This document shows positions 7,796 to 35,829 of a DNA stretch of 64,000 nucleotides, piece by piece. Position 1 is the first letter of the stretch, and every line of letters starts with the position of its first letter. A model generated the notes under the pieces. That model saw only the letters and a list, made by a program, of their open reading frames with translations. It made no database searches and was not told where the DNA came from. Both the position numbers and the translations under genes were made by a program. This DNA comes from Natrinema marinum (lineage in GTDB: Archaea > Halobacteriota > Halobacteria > Halobacteriales > Natrialbaceae): positions 2,790,001 to 2,854,000 of the forward strand of contig NZ_CP100763.1 of NCBI RefSeq assembly GCF_024296685.1. Direction: 5' to 3'.

Positions 7796-8725
7796 TCAGA
7801 CTACGTGGTTACGAAACTCCTCACCGGTCTCGAGCCGAGCGACGTTCTCGCGGACGATCTCGCCTACGTCGCGAAAATAGTCCCGCGTGTAGGCCGCGCA
7901 GTGGGGCGAAACGATGACCTCGTCCATCTCCCAGAGCGGGGAGTCCTCGGGTAGCGGCTCTTCCTCGAAAACGTCCAGCGCCGCGCCGGCGAGGGCGTCT
8001 GCCTCGAGCGCGTCGATCAGCGCCGCTTCGTCGACCACCGGACCGCGGGCGACGTTCACGAAGTAGGCGTCGTCGCGCATAGCGTCGAACGCGTCGGCGT
8101 CGAAGAGATGGCGCGTCTCGTCGGTCAGCGGCACGGTGACGATCACGAACTCGGCGTCGCCGATCGCCTCGAGCAGCCGGTCGGTCGCGTAAATCTCGTC
8201 GAACCCCGGAACGGGATCGCCGGAGCGGCGGATGCCGGTCACGCGAAGCCCGAGCGCGCCCAGCGTCTCGGCGACGCCGCGTCCGAGCGTCCCGGTGCCG
8301 ACGACGCAGGCCGTCGACCCCGGCAGCGTAAACGCCTCGTCCCAGTCGGGGCGGTCCCACCGTCGCTCCTGTTGGTTCGCGACGTGATCGTGGAGTCGTC
8401 GGGCGAACATGAGCAGGTAGCCCGCGACCGTCTCGCCGACGGTCCGGCCGTGGATCCCCGTGCTGTTCGTGAGGACCACGTCGTTCGCCTCGAGCGCGTC
8501 GAACGGGAACCGGTCGACGCCGGCCTGGATCGAGTGGATCCAGTCCAGTTCGAGGAACGCCGCCCGGTGCTCGAGGGTGACGACCGCGTCGCAGGCAGCG
8601 ATGCCATCGTCGCCGATCACCGCGACTTCGATCGACAGATCGCCAAGGGAGTCCGCGAGTTCCGTCGGCGGAAAGACATCGTCGACGGACTCGTGGATTC
8701 CGAGTCGCTCGAGTTCGAACGTCAT
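7796..8725 (-). CDS. D-2-hydroxyacid dehydrogenase family protein
   Basis: 309 residues from the ATG at 8725 (a GTG one codon earlier is possible). The NAD-binding motif GTGTLGRG, the catalytic Arg in VNVARGPVVDE, the Glu in FEEEPLPEDSPLW and the His in SPHCAAYT follow in the usual order of the 2-hydroxyacid dehydrogenase family, which interconverts 2-oxo and D-2-hydroxy acids. The N-terminal substrate domain is short and divergent, so the substrate (glyoxylate, phosphoglycerate-like or other) cannot be assigned. It stands alone and ends near the AT-rich islet. Confidence 0.88.
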   Translation of the reverse strand: MTFELERLGIHESVDDVFPPTELADSLGDLSIEVAVIGDDGIAACDAVVTLEHRAAFLELDWIHSIQAGVDRFPFDALEANDVVLTNSTGIHGRTVGETVAGYLLMFARRLHDHVANQQERRWDRPDWDEAFTLPGSTACVVGTGTLGRGVAETLGALGLRVTGIRRSGDPVPGFDEIYATDRLLEAIGDAEFVIVTVPLTDETRHLFDADAFDAMRDDAYFVNVARGPVVDEAALIDALEADALAGAALDVFEEEPLPEDSPLWEMDEVIVSPHCAAYTRDYFRDVGEIVRENVARLETGEEFRNHVV

Positions 8726-8921
8726 CACCGACGCCTACAGGCGACGCCGTGTTGAAGGTTTGCGACTCGATATCCGCGATCGGCGACCCCACCGATCGCT
8801 ACCCGGCCGGTGGTACGGATCGGCCTCGAGGCGCCGCGAGCGGTCGGTCTGGGACAGCGCGAGGTCCACAAAACGGACCGAGCCAGCGAGTTTATAGCTG
8901 CAGGCGCGAAACGAGGTTCGA

Positions 8922-9338
8922 ATGGAAGATATCGACCGAACGTCGACCGCCGACGAATTCGACGCCGATGCGATTCTCGCGGATCTCCTCGAGTGCTGTG
9001 GCGAGACAGTGCGTGCGTTTGCGGAGTACGATGCGAAAACGTACAACGTCCTCTACTTCGACCAGCGACTGGTCGACGAGATCGAGACCGAAGCGGAGTT
9101 GCAGGCGTTCGCCGACCGGATCCACGAAGACTACCGGCTCGATTTCACCGAGAAACGGATGTACGAGGACGTCTACTCCGAACTCGGAGAAGTGCGCGCG
9201 TTCAGCGTGTTCTTCAGGCAGAGCGCGATCATTCGCTTCGTCGGCGAGCGGGAGGGAATATACGTGTCGCTCGACCGGGACGCCCCCTTCAACGAAGCCA
9301 TCGAATCCGTATACGAGAATCTCGCAGAGAGTTCCTGA
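8922..9338 (+). CDS. Conserved haloarchaeal protein, first gene of duplicated module (copy 1; DUF7522-like)
   Basis: 138 residues. An N-terminal helical part (FDADAILADLLECCG) is followed by FAEYDAKTYNVLYF, DRIHEDYRLDFTEKRMYED and a beta-rich end with AIIRFVGEREGIYVSLDRDAPF. It resembles haloarchaeal proteins I recall as DUF7522, of unknown function. A paralogue of identical length lies at 10822. The TATA-like GTTTATAG at about 8889-8897 lies some 25 bases ahead of the ATG. The stop codon is two bases from the start of its partner, so the two are co-transcribed. No transmembrane segment or catalytic motif is evident. Confidence 0.8.
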   Translation: MEDIDRTSTADEFDADAILADLLECCGETVRAFAEYDAKTYNVLYFDQRLVDEIETEAELQAFADRIHEDYRLDFTEKRMYEDVYSELGEVRAFSVFFRQSAIIRFVGEREGIYVSLDRDAPFNEAIESVYENLAESS

Positions 9339-9340
9339 CG

Positions 9341-9934
9341 ATGCACAGAGACGAAAAACAACGGTTGGCAGAAGCGTCGAACGTCCTCTTGCTCGGGTCG
9401 ATGCTCGACGACTCGACCAAGCAGGTCCACAACATGCTCCTGTCGCCGGACACGTCCGAGCCGACCGACATTCTGGTGCTCACCTTCCGGTCGCCGGACC
9501 AGTGGCTCCGGGCATGGGCCGGCGATCCGGCGACCCACGAGGGGCGCATCGGGATCATCACGCTCGACGAATCGCCCTCAGAGCCGGGCCGGCAGTTCGA
9601 CGACGTGACCACCGTCTCTGTCAACCCCGCGGACCTCACGGGAATCGGCATGAAACTGAGCGACTACCTCTCGAGTCGGAACCACGCGGACACGGAGACG
9701 GTGATCTGCGTCGAGTCGATCACCGAGCTCCTGCAGTACACGAACCGCAAGTCGCTGTTCCGGTTCCTGCGAGTGATCACGCGGCGCATCGAACACGTCG
9801 AGGGGATCGCCCATTTTCACCTCGATCCGGCCGCTCACGACCAGGAGACGGTGAACACGATCAAATTGCCGTTCGACGCGATCGTCGACATCGGCGGCCC
9901 GGACGAGAAGGTCACGGTTTCGACGCGCTACTAG
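9341..9934 (+). CDS. RecA/KaiC-like protein without P-loop, second gene of module (copy 1; DUF7504-like)
   Basis: 197 residues. The strand-helix rhythm NVLLLGSML, DILVLTFRSPDQWLRAW, IGIITLDES, DLTGIGMKLSDYL, TVICVESITELLQYTN and RFLRVITRRIEHVEGIAHFHLDP is that of a RecA/KaiC-type domain. The position of the Walker A motif reads LLLGSMLDDS, with no GK[ST], so ATP hydrolysis is not expected. Haloarchaeal genomes carry many such proteins, which I recall as DUF7504, suspected of a signalling role. The second copy at 11241 is the same length and nearly identical over its central half. Confidence 0.8.
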   Translation: MHRDEKQRLAEASNVLLLGSMLDDSTKQVHNMLLSPDTSEPTDILVLTFRSPDQWLRAWAGDPATHEGRIGIITLDESPSEPGRQFDDVTTVSVNPADLTGIGMKLSDYLSSRNHADTETVICVESITELLQYTNRKSLFRFLRVITRRIEHVEGIAHFHLDPAAHDQETVNTIKLPFDAIVDIGGPDEKVTVSTRY

Positions 9935-10021
9935 CCGTTCGCAGACGGAAGCGGCGGCTCGGAGAAAGGCCCTCGTCACAAGGGGCTCGGAGGGGGTAAC
10001 TCTTCGTCACGGCCGCCAGTC

Positions 10022-10636
10022 GTGGCTACTCCGTCGAGGTCTTTCGGTCTGTCGTTTCTCGCCGCGAGCGTCGTGGCGGTCGTCGCGTGTCTCCTCTTTG
10101 CGATCAGCGGCATCTGGCCGCCGTTCGTCGCCGTCGAAAGCGCGAGCATGGAGCCGAACATTCACACGGGCGACCTGCTCTTCGTCGTCCGGGAAGGGCG
10201 GTTCGCCGGCGACGAGTCCGTCGCGGAGACGGGTATCGTCCCCGTCGAAAACGGTCGCGGTAGCGGGGACGAACGGTTCGGACGGGCCGGCGACGTGATC
10301 GTGTTTCGGCCGAACGGAGATCCGTCGAAAACGCCGGTCATCCACCGAGCCTACTACTGGGTCGAGGCCAGTAGCCAACCCGGCCTACACGTTCAACCGC
10401 CCCTGCGCGGAGATCCGAGCCTGTCCGGCCCCCACGACGGGTTCATCACGAGAGGTGATGCGAACAGCGTGTACGACCAGATCGGCGGCAACGAGCCGAA
10501 CACGACCGTCGTTCGTCCCGACTGGATCGTCGGCAAAGCGGTAGTCAGAATCCCCTGGCTCGGAAACGTTCGGCCGCTGCTCGAGTCGCTGCTCGGGCTC
10601 AGCGTCGTCGAATCGGTTGCGACGACGGTCAGGTGA
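10022..10636 (+). CDS. Signal peptidase I (Sec11 type)
   Basis: 204 residues from a GTG at 10022; no ATG lies upstream of the catalytic core. A membrane segment (about 9-35) precedes the nucleophile S42 in VESASMEPN; H108 in VIHRAY and D146 in ITRGDANSVYDQ give the Ser-His-Asp set of archaeal and eukaryotic signal peptidases, which cut signal peptides at the outer face of the membrane. The insertion between the first two boxes (residues 60-90) and a second hydrophobic stretch near 180-200 are usual in haloarchaea. The gene sits exactly between the two copies of the duplicated module. Confidence 0.88.
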   Translation: MATPSRSFGLSFLAASVVAVVACLLFAISGIWPPFVAVESASMEPNIHTGDLLFVVREGRFAGDESVAETGIVPVENGRGSGDERFGRAGDVIVFRPNGDPSKTPVIHRAYYWVEASSQPGLHVQPPLRGDPSLSGPHDGFITRGDANSVYDQIGGNEPNTTVVRPDWIVGKAVVRIPWLGNVRPLLESLLGLSVVESVATTVR

Positions 10637-10821
10637 TCGGCTGGCCGCCTCGAGTCCGCGCGTCTCCGTGGCCGCAACCTCGCGTCACCGAGTCAACCGA
10701 CGACGTCAGCGGCGGTCGACCGGGCGAACGATCCACCCCCGAACGGAACGCGTCGAAAACCGCCGCTCACGTTTCGAAATCGATCGTGCCTTTATCCGAG
10801 TTCGGTCTGAAAGAGTAGCGA

Positions 10822-11238
10822 ATGGCTGCAATCGAGAACAGGTCGTCGTTCGAGGAGTTCGACGCCGACGCGATCCTCGAGGAGATCCTCGGGATCTGTG
10901 ACGATCGGGTGCGCTCGTTCGCGGAGTACGACGCCCAGACGTACAACATTATGTACATGAGCGAGCGGATGGTCGACCAGTTCGAGAGCGAGGACGAAAT
11001 CGATGACCTCTCCGATCGGATCCACAGCGACTATCGACTCGATTTCACTGAAAAGGAGATGTACGAGGATGTCTACGCCGAACTCGGCGAGGTACGCGCC
11101 TTCAGCGTCTTCTTCACGCGAAGTGTGATTTTCCGATTCGTCGGTGAGCGGACGGGGCTCTACATCTCGGTCGATCGGGACGCTCCGTTCAACGAGATCA
11201 TCGACGCCGTGTACGACAGCATCGAGGCACCCTCGTGA
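10822..11238 (+). CDS. Conserved haloarchaeal protein, first gene of duplicated module (copy 2; DUF7522-like)
   Basis: 138 residues, same length and layout as the gene at 8922 (shared blocks: EFDADAIL, RIHSDYRLDFTEKEMYEDVY, LGEVRAFSVFF, DRDAPFNE) with scattered substitutions elsewhere. The TATA-like CTTTATC at about 10790-10797 lies some 28 bases upstream. Its stop codon TGA is preceded by a GTG that overlaps it, but the partner more likely starts at the ATG three bases on, as in copy 1. Function unknown. Confidence 0.8.
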   Translation: MAAIENRSSFEEFDADAILEEILGICDDRVRSFAEYDAQTYNIMYMSERMVDQFESEDEIDDLSDRIHSDYRLDFTEKEMYEDVYAELGEVRAFSVFFTRSVIFRFVGERTGLYISVDRDAPFNEIIDAVYDSIEAPS

Positions 11239-11240
11239 CG

Positions 11241-11834
11241 ATGCGAGCGGACGCCGAACAGCGGTTGGCGAAGGCATCGAACGTTCTCTTGCTCGGGTCG
11301 ATGCTCGAGGAGTCGCCCCAGCGGACTCACAATGCGCTCCTGTCGCCGGGTACCGACGCTCCGACCGACATCCTGGCGCTTACTTTTCGGTCGCCGGACC
11401 AGTGGCTCCGGGCGTGGGCCGGCGATCCGGCGCCCCACGAGGGACGCATCGGGATCATCACGCTCGAAGAGTCACCCTCGCAGCCCCAGCGGAAGTACGA
11501 CAACGTGACCGCGGTTTCGGTCAACCCCGCGGACCTCACGGGAATCGGCATGAAACTGAGCGACTACCTCTCGAGTCGAGGAGACGCGGACGCGAAGACG
11601 GTGATCTGCGTCGAGTCGATCACCGAACTCCTGCAGTACACGAACCGCAAGTCGCTGTTTCGGTTCCTGCGGGTGATCACGCGGCGCATCGAACACGTCG
11701 AGGGGATCGCCCACTTTCACCTCAATCCGGCCGCTCACGACCAGCAGACGGTGAGCACGATCAAATCGCCGTTCGACGCGATCGTCGACACCGGCGGCTC
11801 GGGCGAGGAGGTCACGGTCTCGACGCGCTACTAG
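11241..11834 (+). CDS. RecA/KaiC-like protein without P-loop, second gene of module (copy 2; DUF7504-like)
   Basis: 197 residues from the ATG at 11241, giving the same length as copy 1 (a GTG at 11235 is possible). It again lacks a Walker A lysine (LLLGSMLEES). From 11520 to 11578 the DNA matches copy 1 at 9620-9678 without a mismatch over 59 bases, and identity stays very high to about 11760, while the N-terminal third and the partner gene have diverged more. That pattern suggests gene conversion after duplication. Confidence 0.8.
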   Translation: MRADAEQRLAKASNVLLLGSMLEESPQRTHNALLSPGTDAPTDILALTFRSPDQWLRAWAGDPAPHEGRIGIITLEESPSQPQRKYDNVTAVSVNPADLTGIGMKLSDYLSSRGDADAKTVICVESITELLQYTNRKSLFRFLRVITRRIEHVEGIAHFHLNPAAHDQQTVSTIKSPFDAIVDTGGSGEEVTVSTRY

Positions 11835-11868: not shown

Positions 11869-13233
11869 CTACTCTTCCGAGGCGTTCCGGTCCGTCGTCC
11901 CACCGTCGTCGCGCCACCCCTCGAGTCCGCGTAATTCCTCGGCCACGGCCTCAATCTCGGCGGGCTCGAGCGCGCCGCGTTCGGTGACGACCTCGGTCAC
12001 GCAGTCGGCGGGCGTCACGTCGAACGTCGGGTTCAACACGTCGACTGTGGCGTCGCCGTCGTAGACCGCGACGCGGTCGCCGGACTCGAGGTTCACGTCC
12101 TCGCGGGTCGAAACCTTGTCCGTGGCCGCGACGACCGAAACCGGAATCCCCTCGCGATCGGCGGCGATCGCCAGCCCCCGCGTCCCGGTCTTGTTCACGA
12201 CCGAGCCGTCGGGGAGGACGGTGTCCGCGCCGACGACGACGCGATCGATCGGCTCGCTCGCGAGGACGTGTGCGGCCGCTGCATCGGTGTGGACCGTCAC
12301 CGCGCCGTCGATCGCCGCGGCCAGCCTCTCGGCGACGGCGATCCCCTCGCGAGCCGGCCGCGATTCGGCGACGTAGACGCGGTCGGGCGTGCCCTCGCGG
12401 AGCGCCTCGAGGACCGTCCCCGACCGCGAGAGCGTCGCGACGCTCCCCGAGAGACGTTCGGCCGCGTTCCGGGCGGCGTCTTCGTCGGCCGATAGCGCGC
12501 GGTCGATCCCCGACAGCGCCGACTCGAGGACCGAGGGTGCGCCCGTCCCCGACCCCTCGTTCACGTCCGCTTCGGCCATCGCCCGGTTCACTCGATTCCG
12601 GAGGACGGCCATCGACGGTCGCGCCTCGAGCAGTCGACCGGCGAGTTCCGCGAGTTCGTCCCGCTCGCCCTCGGGATCGACACCGAATTCGGCTCGTTCG
12701 GCGACGAGTAGTCCCGCGCGATCCCGAACGACCTCGAGCGCGCGCACGGAGAGATACGCTGCACCGTGGTCGCCGTCGGCCGCGATCGACCGCACGGTGG
12801 GCGCGACGCGCTCGTAGGCCGTCCACAGTTTCGGCACCGTCTCGCGGTCGTCGCCAACGCCCTCGAGCAGTTCGGTGGGGGACACCCACGCGAAGGCGTC
12901 GTGTTCCTCGCTCAACTCTACCTCGCGGGTCTCGCAGTCGAACAGGTAGGGGTGGACGACCCACTCGCGCTCGAGGGCTGGGTCCTCGAACGCGACCGGC
13001 CGCCCGGAGCGGACGAGCGAGACGGCATCGGCCTCGAGGCCCGTCTCCTCGCGGATCTCCGCGCGGACCTGTTCGTCGGGATCGCCCTCCGCAAACCCGG
13101 AGACGCCGCACCACTGGCCCCGGTAGGTGCCGACGGCGTCACTGCGGCGCAAGCAGAGAACCTCGCTCCGATGGCGGAGGAACGCGGTGACGACGTGAGC
13201 CGACTCGTCGTACGTGGTGTCGTCCGGGCACAT
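11869..13233 (-). CDS. NUDIX hydrolase fused to eIF2B-alpha/R15P-isomerase-like domain
   Basis: 454 residues from the ATG at 13233 (a GTG at 13245 is possible). The N-terminal NUDIX domain carries a Nudix box around residues 46-68 (GFAEGDPDE ... AEIREETGLE). The C-terminal 300 residues match the eIF2B alpha/beta/delta and sugar-phosphate isomerase superfamily, with VVVGADTVLPDGSVVNKTGT and the Asp of GAD retained. Where ribose-1,5-bisphosphate and methylthioribose-1-phosphate isomerases have a catalytic Cys, this protein reads TLSRSGT, so isomerase activity is doubtful. The fusion may act in nucleotide or NAD-derived sugar-phosphate salvage; that is inference. Confidence 0.85.
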   Translation of the reverse strand: MCPDDTTYDESAHVVTAFLRHRSEVLCLRRSDAVGTYRGQWCGVSGFAEGDPDEQVRAEIREETGLEADAVSLVRSGRPVAFEDPALEREWVVHPYLFDCETREVELSEEHDAFAWVSPTELLEGVGDDRETVPKLWTAYERVAPTVRSIAADGDHGAAYLSVRALEVVRDRAGLLVAERAEFGVDPEGERDELAELAGRLLEARPSMAVLRNRVNRAMAEADVNEGSGTGAPSVLESALSGIDRALSADEDAARNAAERLSGSVATLSRSGTVLEALREGTPDRVYVAESRPAREGIAVAERLAAAIDGAVTVHTDAAAAHVLASEPIDRVVVGADTVLPDGSVVNKTGTRGLAIAADREGIPVSVVAATDKVSTREDVNLESGDRVAVYDGDATVDVLNPTFDVTPADCVTEVVTERGALEPAEIEAVAEELRGLEGWRDDGGTTDRNASEE

Positions 13234-13390
13234 ACGATGGCCCACGATGACCGGGAACGTGTCGCTTTCGAACGCGCCGTTGCGGACCGCGAAGCGCTCG
13301 ACTCGAAACCGTCCACGAGTGAGCGAAACGGACGATCGGGAATCGCCCGCTCACGAACGCTTTTCTGAACTGGCGAACGAACGCAGAGCA

Positions 13391-30172: not shown

Positions 30173-30246
<74 letters not shown>

Positions 30247-30546
30247 CTTTCTGACGCCAAAGAAATTCGTGAGTTGTCGTGCCGGAACCGACGGGATTTG
30301 AACGCAGAGCATGCACCGTCTCACGAGCGAAGCGATCGACCGTGCGTTCGAGTTGCGCCCTTCCCCGTACCGAGTAGAATGCACCACGAACCGCGGACGC
30401 CAGCACGATCTCTCGAGGCCGATCAATGGAGGAGACGAGACTCGTGCTGCTCGAGCGGAGCGGGTGTCAGTACAGTGTCAGCCGTCTCGATAGTACTCTC
30501 GAAACGGTCTCGAGCGCTTCGGCTCGACGAAAGTGTCTCATGAGAA
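30247..30546. other. Gap between convergent tRNA-Lys and tRNA-Cys
   Basis: 300 bases with no convincing gene. At about 30280-30301 the plus strand reads like the complement of a tRNA T arm (minus strand GTTCAAATCCCG) without a matching acceptor or D arm, so at most it is a decayed tRNA 3' end. Confidence 0.5.
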
Positions 30547-30622
30547 AGCCAAGGGCCGGATTTGAACCGGCGGTGGGCGGCTCTGCAGGCCGCTGCGTTC
30601 GGCCGGACTCTGCCACCTTGGC
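30547..30622 (-). tRNA. tRNA-Cys (GCA)
   Basis: 76 bases on the minus strand. Acceptor GCCAAGG pairs with CCTTGGC, anticodon GCA in a stem GCGGC/GCCGC, T loop TTCAAAT on GCCGG/CCGGC. It follows 5S rRNA in the same direction, the usual distal tRNA of haloarchaeal rRNA operons. Confidence 0.95.
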
Positions 30623-30759
30623 GCGTTCTACCGTTGTCACTGCGTTCGTTTAAGCATAGCGGTACGACACGAACGGTCTACTCAGTATTTCGTATAAAAC
30701 TGCAAAAAGCCCCACAGCGCTAACCGCGACGCTGTGAGGCTTGAAATGAAGTATGAGTG

Positions 30760-30881
30760 GTCGGCGGCGAATCAGATTTCCCAGAGGCTCGCGCACTCCA
30801 GTACTGACCGAAACGCAGGCGAGCTTATCTTCCGTGTTCGGGATGGGTACGGGAGGAACCTCGCCGCTGTGGCCGCCTTAA
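30760..30881 (-). rRNA. 5S ribosomal RNA
   Basis: About 122 bases. The 5' end TTAAGGCGGCCAC, the middle CCCATCCCGAACACGGAAG and the end GCCGCC match haloarchaeal 5S rRNA. The exact 3' end is uncertain by a few bases. Confidence 0.93.
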
Positions 30882-30930
30882 CGCCGATTCACGGAATCGA
30901 ACCGCGATCATGCCAATATCGGTGGTGTCT

Positions 30931-30981
30931 GACCGTCATGTACGTGTAGTCCAGTTTGCGTCCGGACCCGTTCTCGCGTCA
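30931..30981 (-). repeat. 23S rRNA processing stem, 3' arm
   Basis: This segment is complementary, with small bulges, to 33956-34006 on the other side of 23S. The longest block pairs TACGTGTAGTCC with GGACTACACGTA; GGACCCGTTCTCG pairs with its partner further out. The helix is the target of the bulge-helix-bulge endonuclease in pre-23S processing. Confidence 0.8.
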
Positions 30982-30999
30982 CGGATCCAATGCGATGTA

Positions 31000-33925
<2,926 letters not shown>

Positions 33926-33955
33926 CGGATCGGCGTTGCACCGAAGTGCAACATC

Positions 33956-34006
33956 GTGACCCGGGAACGGGTCCAGTGGACGCCTGGACTACACGTACAC
34001 ACGGTC
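33956..34006 (-). repeat. 23S rRNA processing stem, 5' arm
   Basis: Partner of 30931-30981. In the plus strand this arm carries GTGACCCGGGAACGGGTCC and GGACTACACGTACAC, which match the reverse complement of the distal arm apart from an internal loop of about ten bases. Confidence 0.8.
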
Positions 34007-34104
34007 TCATCTGCACGCCGGTAGACGGCCGGCCTGCATTAACCCTTCCCAGCCACGTTTACACGGGCTGGTGCATCGGTTTCGTTCGGATTCAATCGTC
34101 GGGC

Positions 34105-34131
34105 CTTGCCCCACTTAAGGGGCACGATCCG
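34105..34131 (-). promoter_or_regulatory. Spacer promoter between tRNA-Ala and 23S
   Basis: The minus strand reads GGATCGTGCCCCTTAAGTGGGG. The block around CCCTTAAGTG is nearly the same as in the upstream promoter at 36127-36134, and haloarchaeal rRNA spacers are known to hold such an internal promoter. It would boost 23S-5S-tRNA-Cys transcription. Confidence 0.6.
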
Positions 34132-34148
34132 AGATTTCCACCGAGTGA

Positions 34149-34220
34149 TGGACCCACAGGGATTCGAACCCTGGGCATCCTCCTTGCAAAGGAGGCACTC
34201 TCCCACTGAGCTATGGGCCC
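34149..34220 (-). tRNA. tRNA-Ala (UGC)
   Basis: 72 bases in the 16S-23S spacer, same strand. Acceptor GGGCCCA pairs with TGGGTCC (one G-U), anticodon TGC in stem GCCTCC-loop-GGAGG, T loop TTCGAAT on CAGGG/CCCTG. This is the standard spacer tRNA. Confidence 0.96.
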
Positions 34221-34255
34221 ACTCCCATCGCGCTTGGACGCGATGGGACATCTAG

Positions 34256-34285
34256 TGTTAGCCTTGGTAGTTCAAAGGTGCCCGA
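34256..34285 (-). repeat. 16S rRNA processing stem, 3' arm
   Basis: Plus-strand TGTTAGCCTTGGTAGTTC at 34256-34273 is exactly complementary to GAACTACCAAGGCTAACA at 35946-35963. A second short block (GCCCGAT) beyond a bulge pairs with its counterpart, giving the bulge-helix-bulge shape used in pre-16S excision. Confidence 0.85.
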
Positions 34286-34356
34286 TCGGCCGGTCGGACG
34301 ACGTGGTCGATCGAACGCGAACCGTGTGGGCTGGGGCGTCGCCCCAGTCCCGGTCT

Positions 34357-35829
<1,473 letters not shown>

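Follow-up and report, generated by a model that had tools for sequence, protein, structure and literature searches.

What does a pair of small genes do that is present twice, in the same order and on the same strand, on either side of a signal peptidase gene in the haloarchaeon Natrinema marinum? The window analyzed here is a stretch of 64,000 nucleotides (nt) spanning positions 2790001-2854000 of a 3.77-Mb single-contig genome, and it contains five consecutive open reading frames on the plus strand: A1, A2, the signal peptidase gene S26, B1, and B2. Unit A is composed of gene 1 (A1, 8922-9338) and gene 2 (A2, 9341-9934), and unit B of their paralogs B1 (10822-11238) and B2 (11241-11834). As recognized in an earlier note on this DNA, this is a duplicated two-gene module around a peptidase gene, and the units are indeed built to equal measure, with 138 codons in gene 1, 197 codons in gene 2, and a 2-nt gap between them. 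Both units also carry a TATA-like box 31 nt upstream of the gene 1 start (TTTATA at 8891-8896 and TTTATC at 10791-10796, plus strand), and each is most likely a bicistronic operon under its own promoter. We propose, with about even confidence for and against, that the products of gene 1 and gene 2 form a non-hydrolyzing regulatory complex in which a degenerate KaiC protein is joined by a roadblock partner.

The first line of evidence is the pairing itself. Gene 1 belongs to DUF7522 and gene 2 to DUF7504, and both were surveyed across 392 genomes of the order with profiles built from the four closest members. The closest homologs of the two genes are adjacent, on the same strand and in the same order, in 11 species of four families. 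Outside the genus, the strongest matches of both genes adjoin co-directionally in four genomes of one family (f17: G233, G248, G140, and G263), three of a second (f12: G251, G196, and G219), and one of a third (f5: G337). The pairs that were measured have coding regions that overlap by 4-8 nt or are separated by 1-2 nt; outside the genus, the extremes are an overlap of 8 nt and a gap of 1 nt. Moreover, gene 1 and gene 2 distances are correlated (Mantel r = 0.84, 0 of 5000 permutations), although shared phylogeny alone can yield part of this correlation. The two genes are divergent neighbors in G332, and more distant members lie tail-to-tail in G181, G174, and G146. An initial collection of 20 further DUF7522 loci from the family contains none with a DUF7504 gene within about 1.5 kb. 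Pairing is a property of one subfamily, for which the strict pairing claimed earlier holds true, while DUF7522 and DUF7504 genes beyond it are mostly unpaired. We also observed a second DUF7504 gene in G337, directly beside and convergent with the DUF7522-DUF7504 pair (L260, 6297-7082 and 7124-8065).

The predicted structure of the gene 2 product provides a second line of evidence. Both copies exceed the cut-off of 27 bits for Pfam DUF7504 (PF24336), with A2 at 124.5 bits and B2 at 121.7 bits, and the family was found in all 121 genomes sampled in the haloarchaeal family to which the window belongs. The best Foldseek match of the A2 structure model (pLDDT 89.1, pTM 0.87) is ArlH/FlaH (4yds, 2.9e-7), and VIA-align returned Z scores of 15.9 to PH0284 and KaiC, over 175-183 residues, and of 15.7 to Elp456. 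The sequence match of gene 2 to KaiC is weak (E 0.0057), as is that to DUF835. The Walker A motif GxxxxGK[T/S] is absent from all 13 paired gene 2 proteins, both window copies included, whereas GPPLTGKR is retained in a relative encoded at another site of this genome. The earlier description of a RecA/KaiC-like second protein without the Walker A lysine is therefore borne out, by the model for the fold and by the sequences of both copies and their paired relatives for the lysine. As modeled, gene 2 has a KaiC/RecA core fold and fits the inactivated KaiC (iKaiC) group as defined in PMC5847659. Related DUF7504 genes are located beside a HalX response regulator gene or fall under matches annotated as HalOD1 and MarR-family proteins. 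KaiC-HalOD1 combinations have been reported, and inactivated KaiC domains have been described as archaeal signaling parts (PMC5847659). A scan of the genome contigs with P0002 yielded one distant locus. Most paired gene 2 proteins share the motif (A/G)HFH..P.AHD near the C-terminus, which in A2 (residues ~157-167, window 9800-9850) and its paired relatives takes the form (A/G)HFH(L/M)(D/N)PxAHD; the degenerate KaiC domain could possibly bind a metal or a ligand there.

Gene 1 had been described as a small soluble protein, but the description goes further for this product of 138 amino acids, which has a predicted Roadblock/LC7 (MglB-like) fold. Relative to Pfam DUF7522 (PF24366, cut-off 27 bits), A1 scores 30.2 bits and B1 16.7 bits, the latter under the cut-off. 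The fold was modeled for B1 from a 21-sequence alignment (pLDDT 73.3, pTM 0.72) and is extended to A1 as its paralog. Foldseek retrieved 24 matches of Roadblock/LC7 type at E <= 1e-3 with this model, the best being MglB (1j3w, 3.9e-5); one of the 24 rows is a doublet-microtubule chain not named in its entry title. With VIA-align, the model reached a Z score of 10.0 to an Asgard roadblock protein over 107 residues, with a root-mean-square deviation of 3.0. The differences between A1 and B1 are concentrated in the N-terminus, predicted helix 1, residues 47-66, and the final helix, while residues 67-98 hardly differ (29 of 32 identical). This pattern would fit the divergence of part of a surface, as might be expected under the earlier suggestion that gene 1 may set specificity.

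We infer complex formation, a role in signaling, and a lack of ATPase activity from the co-directional adjacency in 11 species, the correlated divergence, the predicted folds, the absent GKT/S loop, and the HalX/HalOD1/MarR context. The two products would assemble into a stable heteromer, with the degenerate KaiC domain perhaps serving as a non-hydrolyzing scaffold or sensor and a roadblock dimer as its docking partner. Such a complex could act in intracellular signaling, as do other archaeal modules built on an inactivated KaiC. In this species the pair was duplicated, the gene 1 copies diverged from each other, and conversion homogenized the final ~500 nt of gene 2.

Several points weigh against this proposal. 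Roadblock models in Pfam matched none of the 21 gene 1 family members at E <= 10, a sequence search of the PDB with gene 1 gave no roadblock match, and the confidence of the gene 1 model is moderate. Because the match is one of fold without one of sequence, we suggest that gene 1 may work like a Roadblock/LC7 protein and do not class it as a member of that family. The wider context of the pair also differs between families, with prephenate-dehydrogenase-like and methyltransferase genes in some cases and GTP cyclohydrolase III and DinB-type polymerase genes in others, and points to no pathway. Finally, DUF7522 and DUF7504 genes at other sites are for the most part not neighbors, and therefore each can work without the other. 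The frequency of such unpaired genes, together with the patchy joint presence of the pair, would also be expected if the products were co-expressed without binding, acting separately in one pathway and remaining linked only for joint gain and loss. We consider this a possible but rather unlikely account, as the overlapping or near-abutting coding regions in every measured pair and the order kept in four families are a better fit to the subunits of a complex.

The two genes have not diverged to the same degree between the duplicated units. The nucleotide identity of units A and B is 71.7% in gene 1 and 87.2% in gene 2 (62% and 82% for the amino acids), which agrees with the previous observation of far higher identity in the second gene. 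The identical stretch of 59 nt noted earlier (starting at 9620 and 11520) is exact and is the longest one, and the next runs of 41, 32, and 31 nt are likewise all in gene 2. Silent-site divergence (dS) between the units drops along their length: gene 1 has a dS of 0.98, the opening ~100 nt of gene 2 a dS of 0.57, and the remainder of that gene a dS of 0.21. Where both units encode the same amino acid, the codon is identical at 50 of 83 sites in gene 1 and at 132 of 156 sites in gene 2 (Fisher p = 5e-5).

If gene 2 were under tighter constraint than gene 1, such a contrast could in principle arise in the absence of any conversion, and protein-level conservation is in fact higher in gene 2 in many comparisons. 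However, the contrast between the units sits at silent sites, and it disappears when the orthologous pairs of two other species of the genus, G110 and G113, are compared. Their dS is 0.24 in gene 1 and 0.21 in gene 2, and the same codon test gave 98 of 112 (0.88) and 150 of 172 (0.87), respectively (p = 1.0). Between unit A and G110, the contrast between the two genes is not significant either (p = 0.30). Stronger constraint therefore does not explain the difference, constraint on the silent sites of gene 2 is ruled out by the G110-G113 control, and an account without conversion appears very improbable. There is good support for gene conversion restricted to gene 2, in which roughly 9440-9934 of unit A and 11340-11834 of unit B (both plus strand) were copied between the units. 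The 5' edge of this tract is only approximate because the permutation test of the longest run inside gene 2 alone was not significant (p = 0.07). As such, the earlier claim that only the core of gene 2 was converted is correct in its limitation to gene 2 but too narrow in extent, since the high-similarity stretch covers most of the gene, from about nt 100 through the stop codon.

Rather than branching separately, A and B are sisters relative to G110 and G113 in the trees of gene 1 and gene 2 (support of 94% and 98%), and therefore the duplication postdates the split from these two species. At the silent sites of gene 1, however, A and B are as far apart as these species are, which points either to an old duplication or to silent sites close to saturation.

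Both units lie in an interval of variable content. It is bordered on the left by a 2-hydroxyacid dehydrogenase gene (7796-8728, minus strand; PF02826, 3.2e-53) and on the right by a gene for a NUDIX and IF-2B family protein (11869-13245, minus strand; PF01008, 1.9e-46; PF00293, 3.3e-10), and these borders hold for each of the 29 genus species. The pair occupies the interval in three of the 29 species (G000, which is the window's species, G110, and G113) and S26 in six, and both occur together only in the window's species. In a tree of four flanking genes, G110 is placed beside G036 and G113 beside G106, and neither G036 nor G106 has the pair; therefore, the pair was lost or exchanged repeatedly. 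Patchiness in one chromosomal interval, with sister species that lack the pair, might suggest a toxin-antitoxin, defense, or other accessory module on mobile DNA, and this is also favored by the similarity of gene 2 to phrog_38159 (2.7e-18), an uncharacterized family of viral proteins, and by DUF7504 relatives on haloarchaeal plasmids. Contrarily, synteny of the genes on either side extends over 29 species, the PADLOC search for defense systems matched neither gene, and the predicted folds of the two genes are not known from toxins. We regard a mobile module of this kind as improbable. Most likely, the pair and S26 are both dispensable, and the pair is an old accessory operon of haloarchaea.

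The gene between the units (S26, 10022-10636, plus strand) encodes a Sec11-like S26 signal peptidase that scores 23.4 bits with PF10502, above the cut-off of 22.9, and 47.5 bits with TIGR02228, below the cut-off of 51.85. Its position had led to the earlier view that the pair and the peptidase form one system, for example in secretion control. Apart from that position in this genome, the distribution of the genes speaks against it: S26 is present at the locus without the pair in five species (G114, G107, G008, G120, and G089), the pair is present without an intact S26 in G110 and G113, and at the nine pair loci elsewhere, the 15-16 kb retrieved for each contain no match to S26 with an E value better than 0.1. 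A common system is thus hardly credible, and we reject S26 as one of its members. A fragment of S26 in G068 (L188, 1477-1641) and a short stretch resembling the first S26 codons in G110 (L094, ~9139-9260) are found near a small RNA (sRNA) gene of the interval, and these remnants suggest that a signal peptidase gene was formerly present and has been lost in several species. S26 and this sRNA gene are independent occupants of the variable interval and not members of the module.

The sRNA gene is located just upstream of S26 on the minus strand (9953-10017) and has the layout of a box C/D sRNA, with a closing stem (GGCGGC/GCCGCC), box C (GTGACGA), the guide AGAGTTACCCCCT, box D' (CCGA), box C' (GTGACGA), and box D (CCGA). 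This order fits all 22 genus members among the matches listed if variant D' boxes (CCGA, CTTA) are allowed. Model searches recovered the element from every one of the 29 genus species; more widely, 124 of 125 family genomes carry it, as do 288 of 293 in the order sample (255 of 255 good ones). No Rfam family reaches threshold at the site. Its D' guide pairs with GGGGGTAACT of the 23S ribosomal RNA (rRNA), the gene for which is in the window (31005-33924, minus strand), and the fifth-nucleotide rule (PMC2584109) places the predicted target at the equivalent of E. coli 1909. In Grosjean et al. (2008; PMC2584109), Gm is given at this position, along with a candidate C/D guide that has homologs in 25 archaeal genomes. 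The minus-strand element is thus predicted, from its boxes and pairing, to guide a known 23S rRNA methylation, and it is probably the guide predicted in that paper. A plus-strand three-way-junction RNA and a dif-like site were considered for the conserved 65-nt element and are ruled out by the minus-strand box C/D layout and the 23S rRNA target. Additional weaker matches to the sRNA model occur at G103:C3:221207-221278, G103:C5:83353-83424, G105:C4:139831-139903, G053:C2:111876-111947, G009:C26:4869-4940, and G090:C1:1021939-1026629; being on other contigs or clustered, these could be plasmid-borne or duplicated sRNA genes. The 23S gene belongs to an rRNA operon (16S, 23S, and 5S) with tRNA genes at 30173-35829 of the window, and a second 23S copy of this genome lies near C1:914362.

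Our literature search found no mention of DUF7522 or DUF7504, and the available portions of the papers matching roadblock and KaiC in archaea describe no such pair. A strict operon partner with a recognizable fold offers a concrete handle on one branch of DUF7504 proteins, in the form of a predicted complex, and the duplicated, partly converted copies constitute a natural experiment on which subunit can diverge freely.

With the iKaiC domains of archaea, DUF835 and MEDS (PMC5847659), gene 2 shares the predicted KaiC fold, the loss of Walker A, a weak match to DUF835, and relatives that are near or annotated with HalX, HalOD1, and MarR-family proteins. In contrast to these domains, it stands alone without a fused receiver domain, in a strict operon with a protein of predicted roadblock fold. 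ArlH/FlaH, the KaiC homologue of the archaellum motor, is its best structural match, but the solved ArlH/FlaH structure holds ATP and Mg, whereas gene 2 lacks the P-loop lysine, and the pair loci showed no genes of the archaellum. Elp456, the Elongator subcomplex, is also similar in its RecA fold; its proteins lack classical Walker motifs, and it is a hexamer that acts on tRNA, whereas no tRNA role is indicated for gene 2. A KaiC-like ATPase encoded with a small KaiB-like or DEATH-like component, as given in PMC4858521, likewise combines a KaiC-like protein with a small partner, but in the present pair the partner has a roadblock-like fold and the KaiC protein is a degenerate one.

For gene 1, the closest likeness is to MglB and other Roadblock/LC7 proteins, with which it would share the predicted alpha-beta-beta-alpha-beta-beta-beta-alpha fold, although without a sequence-level match to Roadblock models. 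Roadblock proteins operate with MglA, Rag, or Gtr GTPases, and gene 1 is similarly encoded beside an NTPase-fold protein. It is conceivable, if doubtful, that the roadblock protein and its pseudo-KaiC partner act as a switch analogous to MglA/MglB or Rag/Ragulator, with a RecA fold, either nucleotide-free or ligand-sensing, in place of the GTPase; this species would then hold two paralogous switches that differ in their roadblock subunits and have nearly the same core subunit. The partner of the roadblock protein is a Ras-like GTPase in those systems, whereas that of gene 1 has a predicted RecA/KaiC fold without the P-loop lysine.

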